IMG/VR virus record: IMGVR_UViG_3300027779_000018
Location: 1-64,000 of that record
Reading direction: 5' to 3' (one strand)
Source: a virus
Length of the DNA stretch: 64,000 nt
Both the position numbers and the translations under genes were made by a program. This document shows, piece by piece, positions 13,289 through 28,120 of this stretch (positions are counted from its first letter, which is position 1; every line of letters starts with the position of its first letter). The notes below the pieces were generated by a model. That model did no database searches. It had not been told where the DNA came from and was given only the letters and a program-made list of their open reading frames with translations.

Positions 13289-13510
13289 ATGACAGAAATG
13301 AGAATGACATATGAAGGATTAGCACAGGCAATAGCCGATGAAGTTAATGAGGACATCAGGTTTAATAACAATTTATCTGATGGTGATGTATATAACGATA
13401 CAGTTTTAGACAGGGTGATAATGGACAGAGCAAGTTCAGTGTGTCCTGATTACCTAGATCACTACGATGTTGCTGATCTTGCAAGAGGAATGGTAGAGAT
13501 AACATGGTAG
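13289..13510 (+). CDS. Hypothetical early protein, 73 aa
   Basis: Acidic soluble protein. AGAGG sits 7 bp before ATG 13289, and the gene is the first downstream of a strong early promoter. No domain recognised. Its end overlaps the next gene by 7 bases. Small early genes of this kind often modulate host functions, but nothing in the sequence says which. Confidence 0.65.
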   Translation: MTEMRMTYEGLAQAIADEVNEDIRFNNNLSDGDVYNDTVLDRVIMDRASSVCPDYLDHYDVADLARGMVEITW

Positions 13511-19986: not shown

Positions 19987-20062
19987 GGGGCTGTAGCTCA
20001 GTTGGGAGAGCGCTTCCCTTGCACGGAAGAGGTCGTAGGTTCGATCCCTATCAGCTCCACCA
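19987..20062 (+). tRNA. tRNA-Ala (anticodon TGC)
   Basis: A 76-nt cloverleaf with encoded CCA. The acceptor pairs GGGGCTG with CAGCTCC, the anticodon stem CTTCC/GGAAG encloses CTTGCAC, and the T loop is TTCGATC. It reads GCA, a very common Ala codon in these genes. The sequence looks strongly bacterial and could be host-derived. Confidence 0.95.
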
Positions 20063-20088
20063 TTATGCTAAACCAAGAGGAAAACATT

Positions 20089-20277
20089 ATGGACGAAATG
20101 ACATTCGTGGACTACAAGTTCTATCTGAATGGTCAAGGTGACATAGCATTTGATGAAGGTCTCGATACCCATCAATTGCGTGTAAGACAAGGTGATCTAC
20201 TCAGAGTGAGTAGAGACGTTGAAGGACGAATATGTCTACAACGGTATGGTCATGTCTCACCACACGAAAATGACTAA
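20089..20277 (+). CDS. Hypothetical protein, 62 aa
   Basis: ATG 20089 has AAGAGG 8 bp ahead and lies just after the tRNA. In-frame sequence further upstream would run through the tRNA and is not coding. The small beta-type protein (VDYKFYLNGQGDIAFDEGLD) has no known family. Confidence 0.65.
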   Translation: MDEMTFVDYKFYLNGQGDIAFDEGLDTHQLRVRQGDLLRVSRDVEGRICLQRYGHVSPHEND

Positions 20278-20359
20278 ATACATTTGAACGAGTAATAACC
20301 TGTCGAGACGATCAAAAGTCCAAAGGTTATGAAAGTACATACATAATAAGGAGATATAA

Positions 20360-20506
20360 ATGCAATATATAGCATCAATGTCTGCCTCGATACATGACAA
20401 TTACGCCATCTTATCCCGCAGACATCTAAAACCCACATGGAAAAAATTCAATAAGTTATTGAAATCTGGCCGGTTCGACAAGGTAGTTAAGACGTTTATC
20501 TTATAA
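20360..20506 (+). CDS. Small basic protein, 48 aa
   Basis: A near-perfect ribosome site, AAGGAGATATAA, precedes the ATG. The product MQYIASMSASIHDNYAILSRRHLKPTWKK and so on is Lys/Arg-rich and helical. An upstream hairpin pairs ATAACCT (20294) with AGGTTAT. The strong SD makes this short gene credible. Function unknown. Confidence 0.65.
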   Translation: MQYIASMSASIHDNYAILSRRHLKPTWKKFNKLLKSGRFDKVVKTFIL

Positions 20507-20512
20507 ACCCCC

Positions 20513-20541
20513 TTGTCAAAGATGAGTTGGGGTAGTATAAT
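20513..20541 (+). promoter_or_regulatory. Early sigma70-like promoter
   Basis: TTGTCA (20513-20518), 17-bp spacer, TATAAT (20536-20541). A CTAAATA late box follows at 20559-20565, so the operon from 20607 may be read both early and late. Confidence 0.7.
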
Positions 20542-20606
20542 AGACTAATGGTGGAGTACTAAATACCTCTACAAACAACAACTGAATATATTATTAAGGA
20601 ACAAGA

Positions 20607-21518
20607 ATGGCGACTAACATTATAATGCATCAGAAGTCTAACATGACTGCTGAAACAATCAACACCTCATTTGTACGACTCAAGAAACTTAGAGTTCAAA
20701 TGATTCAAGCAGGACACAATGAAGTATCGTTTTTCTGCCTCAAAGATAGAGCGTGTCAAACTGGTGGACTACTGGATTGGATTACCCCAATTCTTTACGA
20801 TGCTGACCCTCTCATTACTGATGAGTCCTATTACCAATTAACGGTCTTAGCCGATCACCCCCAACTTGCAATAGACCATTGTAAGAATATCTTGTGGAAC
20901 CCTGCATTAATTCCCCTAGACCTATGTCAAACTGCTATCCTCGCCAACCTACCATCAAAAGGGGACATCAAGAATATACCCGATAGCGTAGAGTTAGACG
21001 CTGCCACCCTAGTCACCATTAAAGAGAATGCACTACCCTTCATAGAGATGCCGATGAAATGGTGGGACTTTGAAGATGATGATGACATAGACACTGAATT
21101 CAAGGGACAATGGTATTTTGCCTTTGTCAGTGAAGAACTCAAGGACATAAAAACCACCTTCATGGCTGATATCACAAACACTATAGACACCTATAGTGCA
21201 ATAGGTGGTGTTCAAGGATTTATAGAATCCCAATACAAGGGAGTTGTCCTACCCACCAAATGTGGTCAGTTCACCCCTTACTATATCAACAACGAAGAGA
21301 AGAATTTAGAACTTAACGAACAATGGGAAACGAAGATCAGACATTATTTCCCTACTGAGTGGTATCCACCCGATCAGTCAGAAATGGATGCACCCCTGTT
21401 TTCCTATGACCACGAATGGAGAGACGTGTCAAAACAAGTACGATTCTTGTTCATGGATGACAACAACGGTGAACACGATCAGAAATCTGATTTGTATGCA
21501 CGACTATGGTTCCTATAA
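20607..21518 (+). CDS. Hypothetical protein, 303 aa
   Basis: Soluble protein with no domain I recognise. It contains an acidic FEDDDDIDTEFKGQWYFAFVSEE segment at the middle and an aromatic C-terminus (DQKSDLYARLWFL). The coding strand here is visibly richer in C than neighbouring core genes. It overlaps the oxygenase-methyltransferase fusion by 13 bases, so the two are probably made together and may share a pathway. Confidence 0.7.
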   Translation: MATNIIMHQKSNMTAETINTSFVRLKKLRVQMIQAGHNEVSFFCLKDRACQTGGLLDWITPILYDADPLITDESYYQLTVLADHPQLAIDHCKNILWNPALIPLDLCQTAILANLPSKGDIKNIPDSVELDAATLVTIKENALPFIEMPMKWWDFEDDDDIDTEFKGQWYFAFVSEELKDIKTTFMADITNTIDTYSAIGGVQGFIESQYKGVVLPTKCGQFTPYYINNEEKNLELNEQWETKIRHYFPTEWYPPDQSEMDAPLFSYDHEWRDVSKQVRFLFMDDNNGEHDQKSDLYARLWFL

Positions 21519-22798
21519 CGCCCTTAAAGTTGCGCCTACCCTCGGGCGAAGCGCTCGTTAACGGCGTTATAGGAAATAAGGAACATCTAATTTTCGATCA
21601 ATTCCTCACGGACGAGGAATGCAATCACATTGCTACCATACTCAAACGAGACGAACATAAGATTTTGCGTATACCGAATCACGAGGATACTGGTTACACA
21701 GGAACCACTTCTAAATATTCGGTATACAATCTGTTAAATCATGGTGATATTCGCCCCCTGAAACTACCCGATAGACTATTCAACTTATCCCTATTTTCAC
21801 ATTGCACTGAACTATGGGTGCAATGTTGGGGTAACGTATTGCATCAAGGACAAGAATTGTCCACTCACATGCATAGCTCCGTAGAACAACCATTGAATTT
21901 GTGTGCCACGTCCATATACCTAGAAGGCCCCGAACCTTCTTATACACATTGGGAAGACACTGGCCAGACCCAAAACATTCAGGGACAACTCAACGTGGTC
22001 GGACAACACCACGAACACTCAGTCAAACCCAATATACACACACAACCACGGATTTCTATGGCATTGGATATTCATTGGGAGTATAGTCCTCTCATGATCG
22101 AAAACAACACCAAACGATTCATGCACATTCAGAGAAAGGAGAAGGTACTGTACGAATCAGACTATGAGGGTATGCCCATAATCGTTAAAGAAACTAACGA
22201 CACCACCAAATTATACTTCGGTCACCAGTCGAAAATAGTCCAAACGATAATCTCAAAGAAGAATCCTCTCACACTATGGCACACCTATAGTAAGCAGTTA
22301 TGTGAAGTGACCAAACGAGTGAAAGACCCAAAAAATGCATTGGTACTTGGATTGGGGGGTGGAATCATACCCTCATGGTTACTTGCAAACACTAAGTGTA
22401 AGGTTGATGCGGTTGAGATCATACCCGAACTCGAACACATAGCACAAAAATACTTCCACATGCCCAAGAGTATCAATGTCATTATAGACGATGCATTTAA
22501 ATTCGTGCAGGACACTTCAAACACCTATGATATTATCGTTGTCGATCTATGGGAACCCACAGGGGACTTTATGGAGAAGTTTGATGATGCATTCTATAAT
22601 GGATTAAAACAGATTCTCAGAAACCCTAACGGCTGTATTGCAATCAACACCTTATTTCGTATGGATAGGGAACGCCATGACGAGTACCTACTACGACTTA
22701 AAAAGGAATTCACATCCGTAACAGAATGCCTCAACCCTTACCCCAAGAGCAACAATTGTGTCATCTACTGCAGTAATAACACCATAAATAACACATAA
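21506..22798 (+). CDS. 2OG-oxygenase / spermidine-synthase-like methyltransferase fusion, 430 aa
   Basis: Residues about 28-200 form an HxH-type 2OG oxygenase: THMHSS near 120, and HSVKPNIHTQPRISMALDIHW near 171-190. The latter parallels the HSV...RIS pattern of the oxygenase at 16191. Residues about 225-425 form a Rossmann methyltransferase or polyamine-synthase fold: ALVLGLGGGIIPSWLL (motif I), VDAVEIIPE, DDAFKFV and YDIIVVDLWEP. The two catalytic halves are in one frame. The usual spermidine-synthase diamine-binding Asp pattern is not obvious, so methyl or aminopropyl transfer are both open. Confidence 0.75.
   Translation: MVPITPLKLRLPSGEALVNGVIGNKEHLIFDQFLTDEECNHIATILKRDEHKILRIPNHEDTGYTGTTSKYSVYNLLNHGDIRPLKLPDRLFNLSLFSHCTELWVQCWGNVLHQGQELSTHMHSSVEQPLNLCATSIYLEGPEPSYTHWEDTGQTQNIQGQLNVVGQHHEHSVKPNIHTQPRISMALDIHWEYSPLMIENNTKRFMHIQRKEKVLYESDYEGMPIIVKETNDTTKLYFGHQSKIVQTIISKKNPLTLWHTYSKQLCEVTKRVKDPKNALVLGLGGGIIPSWLLANTKCKVDAVEIIPELEHIAQKYFHMPKSINVIIDDAFKFVQDTSNTYDIIVVDLWEPTGDFMEKFDDAFYNGLKQILRNPNGCIAINTLFRMDRERHDEYLLRLKKEFTSVTECLNPYPKSNNCVIYCSNNTINNT
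21510..21575 (+). repeat. 13-bp perfect inverted repeat across a gene junction
   Basis: TTCCTATAACGCC (starting 21510) is matched by GGCGTTATAGGAA (ending 21575) around a roughly 40-nt loop that is unusually GC-rich. It covers the stop of the 303-aa gene and the first codons of the fusion gene. It may be an RNA hairpin controlling coupled translation, or a binding site. Confidence 0.75.
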
Positions 22799-22813
22799 AG
22801 GAAACAATTAAAC

Positions 22814-23182
22814 ATGAAATTTGACAGTAACAACCCCAAAGTATTGGTACACTACGAAACGAGCAACCCCTTAGCCTCTGAGATGTTCGAATACCTAACC
22901 GACAAAGTCCCCTTCATGGATGAGGTAGGAGATTCAAACACTTACGGAAGTTGGGTACACCACACGGACGAGCATGGACTCTTTGACATCTACTTCCACC
23001 TGATAGACAATCCTACCCTCACAGAACCATGGTTAGAATTAGGAGAGGCCATCAGCCACAAAACCTATTTCGTAGACACCACAGGAACGCTGGAGAATAT
23101 ACCCACGAATGCGTCCGTCATCGTAGAAACCACACCCGCGGAGCTATGGGAACGAGTCAAACGAGAGTATCTTGAACGGTGA
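22814..23182 (+). CDS. Hypothetical protein, 122 aa
   Basis: Acidic, aromatic alpha/beta protein (GSWVHHTDEHGLFDIYFHLIDNPTLTEPWLELGEA). It is the third gene of the C-rich operon. AAGGAAAC lies 7-15 bp upstream. No catalytic signature is certain. It overlaps the next gene by 4 bases. Confidence 0.65.
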   Translation: MKFDSNNPKVLVHYETSNPLASEMFEYLTDKVPFMDEVGDSNTYGSWVHHTDEHGLFDIYFHLIDNPTLTEPWLELGEAISHKTYFVDTTGTLENIPTNASVIVETTPAELWERVKREYLER

Positions 23183-23541
23183 CCTACAACAATAACTACA
23201 CCGAACCCAACATAGACAACGGAATAACGGTCAGTAGAAAGAATTCAGAGGTCATCGGTAATACCTTTACCCCTGATTGGAGTAAAAACACTCACCTTTG
23301 CTATGGGGGTGGAGATCACTTCCATGAGGGAACCACAAGAACAAGACGTAGTACCGTAGAACACTTCAACATCCCCCTAAACTATAAGGAACTCCAACAC
23401 CTTACCACAGGGGATCATTCCACACTTCACCACCAACTCAAAGAACGTCTAGGAATAGACCTACACACGGTGTACGATATCGATAGAGTATGGATAGCTC
23501 CTCATAACACATGGGAACCAATAGGAAAGGGGTCTTATTAA
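23179..23541 (+). CDS. Hypothetical protein, 120 aa, GTG start
   Basis: GTG 23179 overlaps the preceding stop by GTGA. The protein is His-rich (GGGDHFHEGTTRTRRSTVEHFN, LHHQLKERLGIDLHTVYD). A metal role is possible but unproven. Its 3' end meets the minus-strand gene tail to tail with a 4-base overlap, leaving no room for a terminator. Confidence 0.6.
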   Translation: MTYNNNYTEPNIDNGITVSRKNSEVIGNTFTPDWSKNTHLCYGGGDHFHEGTTRTRRSTVEHFNIPLNYKELQHLTTGDHSTLHHQLKERLGIDLHTVYDIDRVWIAPHNTWEPIGKGSY

Positions 23542-23759
23542 CCCAACTGAGAGAAGTATCGTCTAATCATATAGACCCGACAATAGGCAACCACGGTCAT
23601 GATTGCCGTCACCGTAGTACCAATGTAAAATGCACTGTCCCATTCGAGGATATTCATGAAGAGAAACAGCAGAGAAAGATTCAGAGGGTAGTTAATTAAC
23701 AACCCAGTACCTACTGCTGTCATTGTTTCTTTGTGTATTTTACGAGACTTCTTAGACAT
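23538..23759 (-). CDS. Small membrane protein, 73 aa (DUF7220-like)
   Basis: MSKKSRKIHKETMTAVGTGLLINYPLNLSLLFLFM then a second hydrophobic span (GTTVTAIMTVVAYCRVYMIRRYF) gives two transmembrane helices. The pattern resembles the small DUF7220 membrane family. ATG 23759 lies exactly six bases after a TATACT box, so the transcript should be leaderless. It is opposite to the surrounding operons. Confidence 0.65.
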   Translation of the reverse strand: MSKKSRKIHKETMTAVGTGLLINYPLNLSLLFLFMNILEWDSAFYIGTTVTAIMTVVAYCRVYMIRRYFSQLG

Positions 23760-23765
23760 ACCTAT

Positions 23766-23794
23766 AGTATAACACACTGAGAGGCCTATGTATA
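23766..23794 (-). promoter_or_regulatory. Minus-strand early promoter giving a leaderless start
   Basis: TATACT on the minus strand at 23771-23766, with TATACA 17 bp upstream as a weak -35. The 18-mer TGTTATACTATAGGTATG, which joins the -10 and the ATG, is identical to that in front of the gene at 25131. Confidence 0.6.
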
Positions 23795-24031
23795 GGGGGT
23801 TTTAATATAATTCTGAGAGTCTTATGGTGAGAGTGATTAAAAGTGGGGAGAAGTGTGTCAAAGTGGGGGAATAATAATGGAATGTAAGGGGTGATACTGA
23901 GAGTATTACTTTTTGGGTATCGGTGATGTTGTTAAGGGGTACAAACACGAGATTTAGTCGGGAGTCAAGTCGGAGCGTTGCCTAAATGGTGCCGCTGAGA
24001 CCCTTATCCCATAGGTATCTCAGAGCGCCTG
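23795..24031. other. Noncoding stretch of about 240 bp
   Basis: No credible gene on either strand. It is visibly purine-rich on the plus strand (runs of GTGGGG and GAGAG). A hairpin at about 23994-24023 pairs CTGAGA with TCTCAG, downstream of the minus-strand operon, where it may terminate transcription. Confidence 0.5.
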
Positions 24032-24211
24032 CTAGAGGACAGTGCATTTGGTGATGTGAATGCACTTAGTGTCATCTATGTGCAGGGCATTCAGCTCCTC
24101 TTGAGAGATAAACGTAGCGTCTTCCGTCCATTCTTTGTCCGTCCAGTTCTCTAGTGTCTCTCCTAGACGGTGGGTTTGTGCAATCCAGTTGTTATATCCT
24201 TCTAGTGACAT
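24032..24211 (-). CDS. Minus-strand mini-operon gene 3, 59 aa
   Basis: Protein MSLEGYNNWIAQTHRLGETLENWTDKEWTEDA and so on, acidic and Trp-containing, ending CIHITKCTVL. GAGG lies 10 bases upstream of its ATG, and it overlaps gene 2 by 10 bases. The order and overlaps indicate one transcript from 24611. Function unknown. Confidence 0.6.
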   Translation of the reverse strand: MSLEGYNNWIAQTHRLGETLENWTDKEWTEDATFISQEELNALHIDDTKCIHITKCTVL

Positions 24212-24369
24212 GATACATAGGCCTCGTCTGAACTCATGGGGGATCGATTGAGTGCAATTTGTATGTTGACCTTCTCTGCGTACTCATGAGCGGCCATCTT
24301 TGTCTTGAATATCTTTGCACATAGGGGTCGGTGAGTGTGTAAGCAGCTGATTCGGTAGTAGAAAAACAT
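24202..24369 (-). CDS. Minus-strand mini-operon gene 2, 55 aa
   Basis: Protein MFFYYRISCLHTHRPLCAKIFKTKMAAHEYAEKVNIQIALN and so on. GGAG lies 8 bases before the ATG, inside the end of gene 1, and the junction is TAATG. These signals support a real gene despite its size. The Cys/His content at the N-terminus is notable but not a clear zinc motif. Confidence 0.55.
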   Translation of the reverse strand: MFFYYRISCLHTHRPLCAKIFKTKMAAHEYAEKVNIQIALNRSPMSSDEAYVSCH

Positions 24370-24554
24370 TATACACTCTCCATTTTCAGTTTTGTGATTG
24401 CACTTCGTAGTTTTGCTTCCTTACGAGGACTAGCCGGCAGTGATATCCCTCTATTTTGTCCTATTAGAGGGATGCGATCATCCTCTATAGCCCATATCTC
24501 TGAAACCATCTCAGTCCGTTCTTCTTTTGTCATCTCATTCCACTCTTTCATCAT
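24369..24554 (-). CDS. Minus-strand mini-operon gene 1, 61 aa
   Basis: Charged helical protein MMKEWNEMTKEERTEMVSEIWAIEDDRIPLI and so on, with a basic C-terminal helix (PRKEAKLRSAITKLKMESV). It lies 28 bp from the -10 box of a strong minus-strand promoter. The second ATG at 24551 is equally possible. No family recognised. Small early proteins next to an origin-like site could be replication or host-takeover factors. Confidence 0.6.
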   Translation of the reverse strand: MMKEWNEMTKEERTEMVSEIWAIEDDRIPLIGQNRGISLPASPRKEAKLRSAITKLKMESV

Positions 24555-24581
24555 CTTTCTCTCATTATTTAATATACAAGT

Positions 24582-24611
24582 ATTATATCAGAAATGTGGG
24601 GTCATTGTCAA
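24582..24611 (-). promoter_or_regulatory. Strong minus-strand early promoter
   Basis: On the minus strand: TTGACA (24611-24606), 18-bp spacer, TATAAT (24587-24582), with the family-typical TTGACAATG extension. It drives the three-gene mini-operon. Confidence 0.85.
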
Positions 24612-24749
24612 CACTTTTCTGCACCTATATTCGTTTTCTTTGCACACTTATCTGCACCACGCAGCGCTTTGAGTTTCCCACGGAGAATGTATGCTTCATT
24701 GTCGGGTCTTTGTTCCTGAAACCCTTACCACCACTGGGTTTCAGAGCGG

Positions 24750-24779
24750 TTGACAATGGGTCACACTTTATGTTATACT
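24750..24779 (+). promoter_or_regulatory. Strong early promoter with no gene behind it
   Basis: TTGACA (24750-24755), 18 bp, TATACT (24774-24779), with the same TTGACAATG...TATACTATGTATATA layout as the duplicated cassette. The following 300 bases contain only a 7-codon reading frame. Transcription would run into the DnaA boxes. Confidence 0.8.
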
Positions 24780-24785
24780 ATGTAT

Positions 24786-24910
24786 ATAATGGAGATTAAG
24801 CGAATGATATAGAGTGACGGCGGTGCGAGGCAATGTCGATACCTCACTGTATAGACTGCAAGAGTCTGAATTTTTGGAAACACTACTAGTGTCTCTGAGA
24901 TTTCTTTGAG
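24786..24910 (+). ncRNA. Candidate noncoding transcript upstream of the DnaA boxes
   Basis: It begins at the expected +1 of the 24750 promoter. Small stems are visible: GAGG...CCTC at about 24817, GACT/AGTC at about 24854, and ACACT/AGTGT near 24880. No conserved ORF. It could be a regulatory RNA, a replication primer, or the remains of a lost gene cassette. Confidence 0.35.
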
Positions 24911-24916
24911 CTAAAG

Positions 24917-24963
24917 TTATCCACAGAGTTATCCACAAAAAGTTATCCACAGAGTTATCCACA
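24917..24963 (+). other. Cluster of four perfect DnaA boxes (origin-like site)
   Basis: TTATCCACA occurs at 24917, 24929, 24943 and 24955, all in the same orientation, with spacings of 12, 14 and 12 bp. I see it nowhere else in the window. It is made of two copies of a 23-bp block. This is the high-affinity DnaA box sequence, arranged as in iteron-type origins such as P1 oriR. A promoter lies on each side and an AT-rich stretch lies at 24555-24590. Function as an origin or as a DnaA-titration site is inference. Confidence 0.8.
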
Positions 24964-24987
24964 GGCGCCCCTCGGTTGGCGTATCAC

Positions 24988-24999
24988 CTGTGGCCACAG
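24988..24999 (+). repeat. Perfect 12-bp palindrome CTGTGGCCACAG
   Basis: Located 24 bp after the last DnaA box. A second inverted repeat, TACACCTAGTGTA, lies at about 25050. Both may bind dimeric proteins acting at the origin-like site or at the 25095 promoter. Confidence 0.5.
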
Positions 25000-25094
25000 C
25001 TTAAACTGAGTCGGCCTGGTATGAAAATCGAATGAGCGCTCCCTTGATACACCTAGTGTACAGGGTACGTCAAACGGTGTCGCAGAAATAACAC

Positions 25095-25124
25095 TTGACA
25101 ATGCCTCCGATAAACTGTTATACT
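25095..25124 (+). promoter_or_regulatory. Early promoter giving a leaderless start
   Basis: TTGACA (25095-25100), 18-bp spacer, TATACT (25119-25124), then six bases and ATG 25131 at the expected +1. It shares TGTTATACTATAGGTATG with the minus-strand gene at 23759. Confidence 0.8.
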
Positions 25125-25130
25125 ATAGGT

Positions 25131-25364
25131 ATGATAAAGAATCAAGAAAATAAATTGATCGCGACCCACCTTGCCACAGGTCAGTCTGTAGAGATAGACC
25201 TCACTGACAAAGAGATGGTGTATGCAACCTGTAAGGACGTGTGCATCAACGAGTGCTGGGACTTCTTAGACAGCCTAGTGGACAACAGGACAGGGATTAA
25301 GATCATCGATGAATTGCAGATAGACTTCATCGTGGTTAACGGAATTAAAAAGGTTTTCCACTAG
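25131..25364 (+). CDS. Hypothetical early protein, 77 aa
   Basis: MIKNQENKLIATHLATGQSVEIDLTDKEMVYATCKDVCINECWDFLDSLV and so on, a mixed alpha/beta protein with three clustered cysteines. The start sits at promoter +1 with no SD. The first codons resemble the MKNQEETN leader at 38341, so the two cassettes may share ancestry. Function unknown. Confidence 0.65.
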   Translation: MIKNQENKLIATHLATGQSVEIDLTDKEMVYATCKDVCINECWDFLDSLVDNRTGIKIIDELQIDFIVVNGIKKVFH

Positions 25365-25390
25365 ACACACAGACCTCACCATGGTATAAT
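25362..25390 (+). promoter_or_regulatory. Early promoter before a structured leader
   Basis: TAGACA (25362-25367), 17-bp spacer, TATAAT (25385-25390). The -35 overlaps the stop codon of the preceding gene. Confidence 0.75.
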
Positions 25391-25396
25391 AACTGT

Positions 25397-25525
25397 ATGG
25401 TTTAAAGAAATGAATCAAAGGCAATACTAGAGTGCCTATGAAAGTCTAGTAGGGTGACGGCCGAACGTCATTAAGTTCTGATAGAGCAGAGGGGTTATGA
25501 GAGTGACCCCCCTTTACTGTTAGAT
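25397..25525 (+). ncRNA. Structured leader or small RNA ending in a terminator-like hairpin
   Basis: About 130 nt with no ORF. Stems include AGGCA/TGCCT (about 25419-25437), a GACGGCCGAACGTC element (about 25456) and GGGGT/ACCCC (about 25491-25509) followed by CCTTTACT. It could be a free small RNA, or an attenuator in front of the 65-aa gene at 25542. Confidence 0.4.
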
Positions 25526-25541
25526 AAGGATATGATATAAT

Positions 25542-25739
25542 ATGAAGACAAACGTAATTGGAGCAGAACGGTGGACTACTGTAGATGTATACAGTATACC
25601 AAAGGACTCTACGCGTATGGCAGGAGCATCGATGCTAGAGCGTCGCACTAAGACCCCTGTAAGCCTCTCTGAGGGACTTGCAGTGTGTCAAGAGTACGAG
25701 GGTCAGGGTCATGTCGTAGAGCTCCGTAGAGTGACGTAG
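25542..25739 (+). CDS. Hypothetical protein, 65 aa
   Basis: Small protein with SKPKDSTRM-like basic patches and SLSEGLAVCQEYEGQGHVVELRRVT at the end. AAGGA lies about 11 bp upstream. It lies behind the structured leader and may be attenuated by it. No family recognised. Confidence 0.55.
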   Translation: MKTNVIGAERWTTVDVYSIPKDSTRMAGASMLERRTKTPVSLSEGLAVCQEYEGQGHVVELRRVT

Positions 25740-25880
25740 AGAGAGAGCGTCTTAAAACAGTGCTGTGGGACTCCTAGACTCTTTTAGAAGCGACCTAGAC
25801 CCCCACCCTAATTGTATTCAAAGATTATTCTAAGTGATATCAAAAAATTTCTCAGGTAAAAATTATGACTAAAAACAAAA
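25740..25880. other. Noncoding gap of about 140 bp
   Basis: No convincing gene. A seven-codon ATG frame at 25864 leads into the next CDS. There is no clear promoter hexamer pair. AT content rises sharply from 25815. Confidence 0.4.
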
Positions 25881-26036
25881 ATGAATAATTCAGAGCAATG
25901 GAAAAAGAACTCCGATGAATGGGTCAAGACCATGGAAGCATCAAGAATTAAAAAAGAAGAATACAACAAGTATCGTATCACCACGAAGAACCCATTATCC
26001 TACAGAGATTGGTTGGCCATGGGAGAAATATCATGA
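25881..26036 (+). CDS. Hypothetical protein, 51 aa
   Basis: MNNSEQWKKNSDEWVKTMEASRIKKEEYNKYRITTKNPLSYRDWLAMGEIS, a charged helical peptide. It shares an ATGA overlap with the following membrane protein, which supports it as a real gene. There is no clear SD. Function unknown. Confidence 0.55.
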   Translation: MNNSEQWKKNSDEWVKTMEASRIKKEEYNKYRITTKNPLSYRDWLAMGEIS

Positions 26037-26308
26037 GTCACAGTGCAATGTTTAAAGCAATGAATCGAGAGAAGTCTGCATGGATTCTTAAATGGGTCGC
26101 AAGTGTATGTCTAGTGATAGGAATGAGTGTTCGTGCAAGTGGTATACCCGAACTCGCTATATTTGATTTAACATTTTCCTTCGTGGGTATATGTGGTTGG
26201 TTGACGGTGAGTATTATATGGAATGACCGTGCATTGATATTATTAAATGCAACTGGGTTTCTGATTTTATTGACTGGTTTAATTAAATACTTTTTCGTGG
26301 GAGTCTAA
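26033..26308 (+). CDS. Three-span membrane protein, 91 aa (DUF6552-like)
   Basis: ILKWVASVCLVIGMSVRASG, LTFSFVGICGWLTVSIIW and NATGFLILLTGLIKYFF are three membrane helices. The pattern NREKSAWILKWVAS...WNDRALILLNATGF resembles a small family seen in marine bacteria and their phages (I believe DUF6552). Function unknown. Translation is coupled to the 51-aa gene. Confidence 0.7.
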   Translation: MSHSAMFKAMNREKSAWILKWVASVCLVIGMSVRASGIPELAIFDLTFSFVGICGWLTVSIIWNDRALILLNATGFLILLTGLIKYFFVGV

Positions 26309-26316
26309 ATAATATC
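26305..26316 (+). promoter_or_regulatory. Late promoter CTAAATA abutting start codon
   Basis: CTAAATA (26305-26311), five bases ATATC, then ATG 26317. There is no SD. A leaderless late transcript is predicted. Confidence 0.6.
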
Positions 26317-26595
26317 ATGATAGATTTTTTATTAAGTATACTGACCTTTCCTTTTTGGTTAGTGTCTACCTTTTTCATTTACGCTTTTGGAATTGTGTTT
26401 TACTATGGCATCTATGTGTTGTGTCGTGTGTACATCTACGAGGCACATTGGGATACCATTAAAGACAAGGTCTTTACAAGAACAGAAATGAAAACCCATA
26501 GGGAGCCCTCTCGTGTCTACACCAAGGCAGAAGATTATAAGACACCAAAGGACTACTCACCGAAACACGATGATATAGAGGATTATATAAATTAA
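26317..26595 (+). CDS. Membrane protein with cytoplasmic tail, 92 aa
   Basis: Two close hydrophobic segments (FLLSILTFPFWLVSTFFIYAFGIVFYYGIYVLCRVYI) are followed by a charged 50-residue tail (MKTHREPSRVYTKAEDYKTPKDYSPKHDD). The start lies at the predicted late-promoter +1. Unknown function. One of three adjacent small membrane proteins. Confidence 0.65.
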   Translation: MIDFLLSILTFPFWLVSTFFIYAFGIVFYYGIYVLCRVYIYEAHWDTIKDKVFTRTEMKTHREPSRVYTKAEDYKTPKDYSPKHDDIEDYIN

Positions 26596-26596
26596 T

Positions 26597-26800
26597 ATGC
26601 AAGACGCAAATATTTTAATACACATAGGATACGTTGTCGCACTCGTGTGGTTTGTATTCCGTAACGGCCGTAAGAGTGGTCGTAAAGAACTTTGTGAGGA
26701 ATTCATGGAGAAGGGACTCATTACAGAAGCTAAACTCATGAAACACTACCCACCACCCCCTGAAATTAAAGACGATTTGAAAAACCCCCCGAAAGAATAG
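26597..26800 (+). CDS. Single-span membrane protein, 67 aa
   Basis: One N-terminal helix (ILIHIGYVVALVWFVF), then a basic NGRKSGRKE segment and a Pro-rich tail (HYPPPPEIKDDLKNPPKE). It starts 1 bp after the previous stop. Function unknown. Confidence 0.65.
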   Translation: MQDANILIHIGYVVALVWFVFRNGRKSGRKELCEEFMEKGLITEAKLMKHYPPPPEIKDDLKNPPKE

Positions 26801-26809
26801 GACAGTATA

Positions 26810-28120
26810 ATGAATGAAACAAAGAAAGACAGTGAGAAAGTCATTTCGGATGAGACTCAGCAGAACATAAGAATCCTAGGGATTAATATTTCACATGACG
26901 CGTCTATTGCAGTCATCGATAACGGTGTCGTAACCAGTGTCTACGAAGAGGAACGCTGTCGCAGGACGAAGTACTGGGCTCCCCATGGGGATAAGGAAAC
27001 ACTCTACCAGTGTATCGAGCAGAAGAACCTAGAAGAGATTGATGAGGTGGTCTTCACTTCATTTGATCGCAGGCAGTTTAATGTTGTGGTCTCACCCACG
27101 ATCAGTCTCGACAGAATGAAGTCTCGTGAGTTTATTAGAAAATTAGAAACACAACAATTGTCTCGAGCTCGGTTAGAAGAGTTGGTAGAAGAATACCCCG
27201 ATGATTTCTCTATTGAGAAAATCTATGAGAACGATGAAGACCAAAGAATCATGGATGACATCGCAACCAATCAGTTAGGATTATCTTCAGAGGAATACCT
27301 CTACAATGTAGATCACCATGTCCACCATGCCTATTGTGGATTCGTTCAGTCAGAGATGGAGAATGCATTGGTCATTGTCATGGACGGTGGTGGCTGTCAG
27401 AAATATTACGACACACATCCTGCTTACCAAGAAATTGAATCCATTTATTATGCTACCAAAGGTGGGATGGAACCCTGTTGGAGTCGATTGTCGAACAGTC
27501 GTTTCATCGGGGACTTCGATGAGTTCTTCCCCAACGAATGTCACGCAGCTGGTCTCTGTTACTTAGATGAAGAGGAACATAGGGATGGGGTTGATCTTTG
27601 TTTTACTTCTCGTCCTAGCGCTGGTATGAACTTCAGTAACATGTCTCTAGCACTAGGGACGGATGACCAAGGTCGAGCAGCTGGAAAAGTGATGGGTATG
27701 GCATCCTACGGAAAACCTTCTCAGAATATATTCAACAAGTATAATGTCAGTCAACAATTGGAACTCGATTCCTACGACCATACGGTGGAGATCATCAAAC
27801 GTGCTATTGACTATGCACCTGATTGTAGGAACATTGTTCTCAGTGGTGGGTACTCTTTAAACTGTACCAACAACTACAAGTACTTAGAGGCCTTCCCTGA
27901 TTATCAAATCTTCGTTGACCCTATTCCCCATGATGGTGGAACGGCAGTCGGAGCTGCATTGCAGATGTGGGAAAATATTAATAGTAATAATGTTTCTAAT
28001 AATGTACAAAGTACATTTAATGAAACAAATGAAGAGGATAACGACACTTTACCCGACTGGCCAGAGATAAAAGATGATGAACCACAGATCACCCCTTTAG
28101 AGTGGAGTGCAGATAAATGA
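26810..28120 (+). CDS. Carbamoyltransferase, N-terminal (Kae1-like) half, 436 aa
   Basis: ILGINISHDASIAVIDNG and DHHVHHAYCGF are the signature nucleotide- and metal-binding motifs of NodU/TobZ/CmcH O-carbamoyltransferases. VIVMDGGG, GKVMGMASYG and NIVLSGGYSLNCTNN complete the ASKHA-type domain. It lacks the C-terminal domain, which is encoded by the next gene with an ATGA overlap. It forms carbamoyl-adenylate from carbamoyl phosphate and ATP in this family. The acceptor is unknown. The C-terminal 50 residues are acidic and low-complexity. Confidence 0.88.
   Translation: MNETKKDSEKVISDETQQNIRILGINISHDASIAVIDNGVVTSVYEEERCRRTKYWAPHGDKETLYQCIEQKNLEEIDEVVFTSFDRRQFNVVVSPTISLDRMKSREFIRKLETQQLSRARLEELVEEYPDDFSIEKIYENDEDQRIMDDIATNQLGLSSEEYLYNVDHHVHHAYCGFVQSEMENALVIVMDGGGCQKYYDTHPAYQEIESIYYATKGGMEPCWSRLSNSRFIGDFDEFFPNECHAAGLCYLDEEEHRDGVDLCFTSRPSAGMNFSNMSLALGTDDQGRAAGKVMGMASYGKPSQNIFNKYNVSQQLELDSYDHTVEIIKRAIDYAPDCRNIVLSGGYSLNCTNNYKYLEAFPDYQIFVDPIPHDGGTAVGAALQMWENINSNNVSNNVQSTFNETNEEDNDTLPDWPEIKDDEPQITPLEWSADK

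Follow-up and report, generated by a model that had tools for sequence, protein, structure and literature searches.

A replaceable tandem array of DnaA boxes in an early region of a T4-related marine virus: a putative capture site for host DnaA

The E. coli site datA requires both an IHF site and DnaA boxes in defined orientations, and phages of the T4 type are taught as being independent of DnaA. In E. coli, DnaA is an established transcription factor (PMC11317965), and ChIP-seq has shown that it binds in vivo mainly to pairs of boxes spaced by 2–3 bp, one extra base pair in the spacer greatly lowering the binding (PMC11317965). The promoters of phages of Alphaproteobacteria contain sites for CtrA, a regulator of the host cell cycle, and the phages of that study had no asymmetric distribution of DnaA sites (PMC9437464). 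Other phages have been assigned DnaA-box origins by prediction (PMC11512268). Searches of open-licence papers gave no account of DnaA-box arrays in phages of the T4-like or T5-like kind, nor of the other phage arrays considered below.

The array considered here lies in a 64,000-nucleotide stretch of viral DNA (the window), which is part of an 81,951-base record. As judged from its genes, the source is a T4-related, virulent virus of marine bacteria with relatives among the Kyanoviridae and pelagimyophages. Its gp6 is ~40% identical to those of Methylophilales phage Melnitz and Pelagibacter phages Mosig and HTVC008M, and a T4-type baseplate, gp32 (SSB), primase, the gp59 helicase loader, NrdA and NrdB (the RNR genes), and a late-promoter regulator are present, placing it among the T4-like phages. 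No close relatives were found via its carbamoyltransferase gene. The contig contains no DnaA DNA-binding domain (DnaA_C), so the reader of the boxes would be the DnaA of the host. In our best reading, the array is a selected, replaceable element that would capture host DnaA and act as a decoy and/or a transcription roadblock.

Layout of the array and its early promoters

The features of the locus are as follows.

24582..24611, minus strand: divergent early promoter for minus-strand small genes (24554 and below); 12/12 consensus
24750..24779, plus strand: early-type promoter TTGACA-18-TATACT with extended -10, pointing into the array; 11/12 consensus
24792..25094, plus strand: lineage-specific cassette with the array, in whose place the syntenic relatives L502 and L503 have different sequence; bounded by the alignment end at 24791
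24913..24963, plus strand: the 26-bp unit AAAGTTATCCACAGAGTTATCCACAA, duplicated in tandem to form the array; Tandem Repeats Finder (TRF)
24917..24963, plus strand: array of four perfect DnaA boxes (two double boxes); 9-mer counts and TRF
24964..25090, plus strand: stable G+C-rich flank 3' of the boxes, with the palindrome CTGTGGCCACAG; duplex stability in 60-bp windows
25095..25124, plus strand: early promoter 3' of the array, for a 77-aa ORF starting at ~25131; 11/12 consensus

The word TTATCCACA occurs four times without mismatch on the plus strand (24917–24925, 24929–24937, 24943–24951, and 24955–24963), at start-to-start distances of 12, 14, and 12 bp, and has no further exact copy in the 64-kb window, where a first-order model predicts ~0.44 copies on the plus strand and ~0.57 on the minus strand by chance. 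These exact counts confirmed what an earlier note had reported of the number, common orientation, spacing, and uniqueness of the boxes. No other 9-mer forms a comparably tight cluster in the window, and no second box pair occurs in the remainder of the 81,951-base record. The array does not represent four independent sites, because TRF resolved it into a single perfect 26-bp unit present in two identical copies (period 26 × 2.0, 100%). Each unit is a double DnaA box with a 3-bp spacer within the pair, and 5 bp separate the two pairs; the array therefore has the features of a double box, defined as at least two TTATNCACA boxes in the same orientation with spacers of 2–3 bp. The 12-bp palindrome that the earlier note had mentioned is indeed present beside the array, at 24988–24999, but it was given no weight because ~16 palindromes of this length are expected by chance per 64 kb.

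The three promoters that had been noted at the locus, 24611(-), 24750(+) without a gene, and 25095(+), were all recovered with consensus scores of 11/12 to 12/12. The two plus-strand promoters share an 18-bp spacer and a TG before the -10 element, and a further plus-strand promoter lies at 25362. The title of the earlier note placed the boxes between divergent promoters; however, the divergent pair is 24611(-)/24750(+), and the array lies outside it, downstream of 24750(+) and between this promoter and 25095(+), which have the same direction. The window contains nine near-identical early-type promoters (12713, 13228, 13903, 24611(-), 24750, 25095, 30462, 38302, and 38772) with the family pattern TTGACAATG...TGTTATACT, of which 13228 and 38302 share the same 30-bp sequence, and the array is placed amid the strongest early-type promoters of the contig. 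No plus-strand ORF of at least 40 aa starts within 24780–25094, where only a 7-codon mini-ORF follows promoter 24750, and a structured RNA from this promoter was unsupported (folding z = -1.2).

A gene-less promoter that points into the array, with a second promoter following, would suit a role in DnaA-controlled transcription. The array would then be an operator or roadblock at which bound DnaA stops or delays the 24750 transcript, together with read-through toward 25095, until DnaA is depleted or altered in state, so that early expression would sense the replication state of the host. The known activity of DnaA as a transcription factor in E. coli (PMC11317965) and the CtrA sites in promoters of Alphaproteobacteria phages provide precedents, although the phages of the CtrA study showed no asymmetry in DnaA sites (PMC9437464). 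The boxes overlap neither promoter, being ~130 bp 3' of the likely 24750 start and ~130 bp 5' of the 25095 -35 element, which makes direct promoter control less likely, and the relative L502 keeps the promoters without the array. We consider control of transcription by DnaA rather unlikely as the main role of the array.

Positions 25362–25520 hold a candidate small noncoding RNA, consisting of promoter 25362 and a strongly folded transcript at 25398–25520 (z = -3.9, with 0 of 200 shuffles as stable) that ends in a terminator at 25491–25510; an overlapping stretch, 25419–25881, is 72% identical in L502. An Rfam search of the sequence returned two tRNAs only, and no similarity to plasmids was found. 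The G+C content of 20001–28000 is 0.41–0.43, versus 0.38, with a flat GC skew, and this part of the window coincides with host-type metabolic genes (a spermidine synthase domain and the carbamoyltransferase).

The locus in relatives and similar arrays in other phages

Two viral contigs, L502 and L503, are syntenic across the locus. In L502, the sequence corresponding to 24579–24791 is 94% identical, including promoters 24611(-) and 24750(+), but the alignment ends at 24791, beyond which small ORFs and another two early promoters take the place of the array. Early promoters and neighboring genes are likewise kept in L503, again without the array, and the 77-aa ORF has homologues in both contigs. 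Because these syntenic relatives retain the promoters and neighbors without the array, 24792–25094 is a lineage-specific cassette, and the array is dispensable, since both do without it. Judging from these alignments, the locus is a region of shuffled early promoters with short inserts. No box pair occurs anywhere in the full L502 and L503 contigs, in a 129.6-kb relative, or in the complete genomes of Melnitz-3, Mosig, and HTVC008M, nor was one present in 50 relative contigs collected on the basis of gp6, most of which do not cover the locus. A 73-aa early gene of the window (13289–13510) is 100% identical in L502 (10237–10455) at a different locus, directly next to the position that the array occupies in the window, and is apparently a mobile early cassette.

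When viral contigs were searched with the box-pair pattern, the distances between boxes peaked at 11–12 and 20–22 bp, with few pairs at 14–19 bp even though all distances were allowed, and almost all pairs were in direct orientation. Arrays of three boxes were found in at least 120 viral contigs, versus 7 with the reversed-pattern control, an excess that could partly reflect tandem duplication; some of the arrays are coding repeats. The median gap between the ORFs flanking intergenic viral arrays was 730 bp, and RusA resolvases, HNH endonucleases, and terminases were recurrent neighbors of the arrays. No array with the same spacing was found in bacterial genomes; the double box by itself is widespread there and uninformative. 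One T4-like contig with three boxes (L166, 7621–7653) was discarded because the boxes belong to a VDK-type coding repeat; L478 and L480 are near-identical in sequence there. Boxes in coding repeats represent a class of false positives for box scans.

Such coding repeats show that an array can be mimicked, and a perfect two-copy duplication missing from relatives is what would be expected of a recent neutral repeat. The array could accordingly be a mere look-alike, either a functionless 12/26-bp slippage repeat or a site for another phage protein. However, the unit that was duplicated already constitutes a perfect double DnaA box, in viral arrays the exact box word outnumbers its reversal at least 17-fold, and the changes inside the boxes of Vibrio T4-like phages, described below, fall mainly at a position that DnaA tolerates. 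We regard this alternative as improbable.

Related arrays are present in isolated phages of unrelated kinds, including the T7-like phages P483 and nasanit, the T5-like phage BF23, Lactococcus phage WRP3, and Pseudoalteromonas phage H101, and also among Microbacterium, Streptomyces, and microvirus records. The BF23 boxes are part of the terminal repeat, with divergent pre-early promoters on either side, those of P483 and nasanit lie at the early end, and the arrays of WRP3 and H101 are located within large noncoding gaps. In several phage groups, arrays are near record ends or in terminal repeats (L350, BF23; H38–H50, Microbacterium; H51/H92, Streptomyces; H179, Arthrobacter; L001, P483), which is no more than a lead, as the start of a record can be arbitrary.

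The Vibrio T4-like phages (Straboviridae) carry 4–7 boxes (seven in ValKK3 and VH7D, five in VS2 and QD01, and four in nt-1 and CZ01) in a corresponding noncoding gap among small hypothetical genes. A match inside a gene of QD01 (133 kb) was discarded because it contains a single real box; the true QD01 array is at 97 kb. In the six-phage alignment, 3 of 56 columns were variable at non-degenerate box positions, compared with 23 of 46 in the spacers and 78 of 153 in the flanks, and 3 of the 7 columns at the degenerate fifth box position varied. The difference between boxes and spacers gave a Fisher p of 2e-7, a value derived from a few related sequences whose columns are not independent. This pattern matches the one that DnaA binding would impose, suggesting that the boxes are constrained in these phages. 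The constraint figures come from the Vibrio arrays, as no close relative carrying the array of the window was found. In KVP40, phi-pp2, VH1_2019, and TCU-VP03, the flanks are retained and no boxes are left; between the KVP40 group (L505, L507, L512, and L513) and the phages with boxes (L504, L506, and L508–L511), the flanks are 53–83% identical. The Vibrio phages with and without boxes thus constitute a natural comparison.

Origin, decoy, or roadblock

The 3-bp spacers of the array correspond to the spacing that E. coli DnaA prefers in vivo, and the array is therefore likely to be bound by host DnaA. The earlier proposal that the boxes are DnaA sites is well supported by this spacing and by the box-specific constraint in other T4-like phages. 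Three functions had been put forward for them, of which the sponge and the DnaA-regulated promoter survive, as our best reading and its rival, and the origin, which headed the earlier note, is disfavored.

In an origin dependent on DnaA, the host protein would open the DNA and load host DnaB, or would aid R-loop priming of the first round from 24750. The number, tight spacing, and common orientation of the boxes resemble the DnaA-assembly regions of oriC, the transcript from promoter 24750 could serve as a primer, and there are the predicted DnaA-box origins of other phages (PMC11512268). However, no low-stability unwinding element lies beside the boxes: every 60-bp window with a start between 24926 and 25051 ranks within the most stable 0–10% of the window, and the sole very weak DNA, at 24564–24593, is 320 bp from the array, at the -10 of the minus-strand promoter. 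No IHF site (WATCAANNNNTTR) occurs within 24300–25600, and the GC skew, which is weak over 20–26 kb, shows no lasting sign change centered on 24.9 kb. The phage also has its own T4-type gp59 loader, gp32, and primase. In addition, the array is missing from the syntenic L502 and L503 and from the complete Melnitz-3, Mosig, and HTVC008M genomes, so that its position is not conserved among relatives as that of an oriC-type site would be; the earlier note had itself named absence from close relatives as evidence against its proposal, and as regards an essential, conserved origin this evidence applies. For these reasons, the origin was rejected as the best reading and is considered very unlikely.

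The reading that we favor, to which we assign an even chance, is that the array offers host DnaA a docking site, composed of two double boxes on a replaceable cassette, that serves for capture rather than as an origin. We infer that the array is bound by the DnaA of this phage's host and that binding leads to titration or to a roadblock. Within each pair, binding of DnaA to the two boxes is expected to be cooperative, and a short DnaA filament could nucleate on the two pairs. As the phage genomes multiply, each would add four high-affinity DnaA sites, which would draw DnaA away from the oriC of the host and from DnaA-controlled promoters; capture would take place early in infection, and DnaA bound to the array would, in addition, impede the early, gene-less transcript that starts at promoter 24750. 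As a counterpoint, four sites per genome make a small sponge early in infection, which would become relevant only once replication has taken place or in cells with few DnaA molecules. Capture is favored and the roadblock is a close rival, and the sequence alone cannot separate them.

More tentatively, virulent phages of many unrelated families, several T4-like lineages among them, may each have gained, independently of one another, DnaA-capture arrays that are selected and replaceable and that lie in the early region. If so, such arrays would withdraw host DnaA, stopping initiation, or read the replication state of the host, in either case by a DNA-based host-takeover strategy that is undescribed. 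A DnaA-binding array whose individual boxes are conserved within one set of T4-like phages, and which other sets have gained or lost, implies an importance of host DnaA for these phages that has yet to be described. The question is directly testable, because phages of the ValKK3 type, with the array, and KVP40, without it, have been isolated and can be cultured.

Comparison with known systems

Like the arrays of BF23, P483, and nasanit, that of the present phage consists of tandem AGTTATCCACAG boxes that lie in a large noncoding region of a virulent phage, close to early promoters. The arrays of those three phages lie in or near DNA ends, whereas fixed ends are not expected in a permuted genome of the T4 type, and the number of boxes differs, with three in BF23 and five perfect plus several degenerate boxes in P483. 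The Vibrio arrays also share with this array a virulent T4-like phage as carrier, tandem TTATNCACA boxes in the same orientation, a noncoding gap among small hypothetical genes, and a presence in some lineages and absence from others, but they have looser spacing (9–23 bp) and some degenerate boxes, belong to another family and locus, and are kept across several species. There is no homology beyond the boxes between this array and those of the T5-like, T7-like, and Vibrio T4-like phages.

Among bacterial systems, oriC resembles the array in having several consensus boxes for DnaA within 50 bp, but the array has no adjacent unwinding element or lasting skew switch, and the phage has its own helicase loader. 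The array also resembles datA and the chromosomal double boxes of E. coli, which are high-affinity box clusters that bind DnaA without starting replication, as is predicted for the array. It was not classed as datA-type because it lacks an IHF site, but its 3-bp paired spacing is the one mapped for the double boxes of E. coli (PMC11317965).
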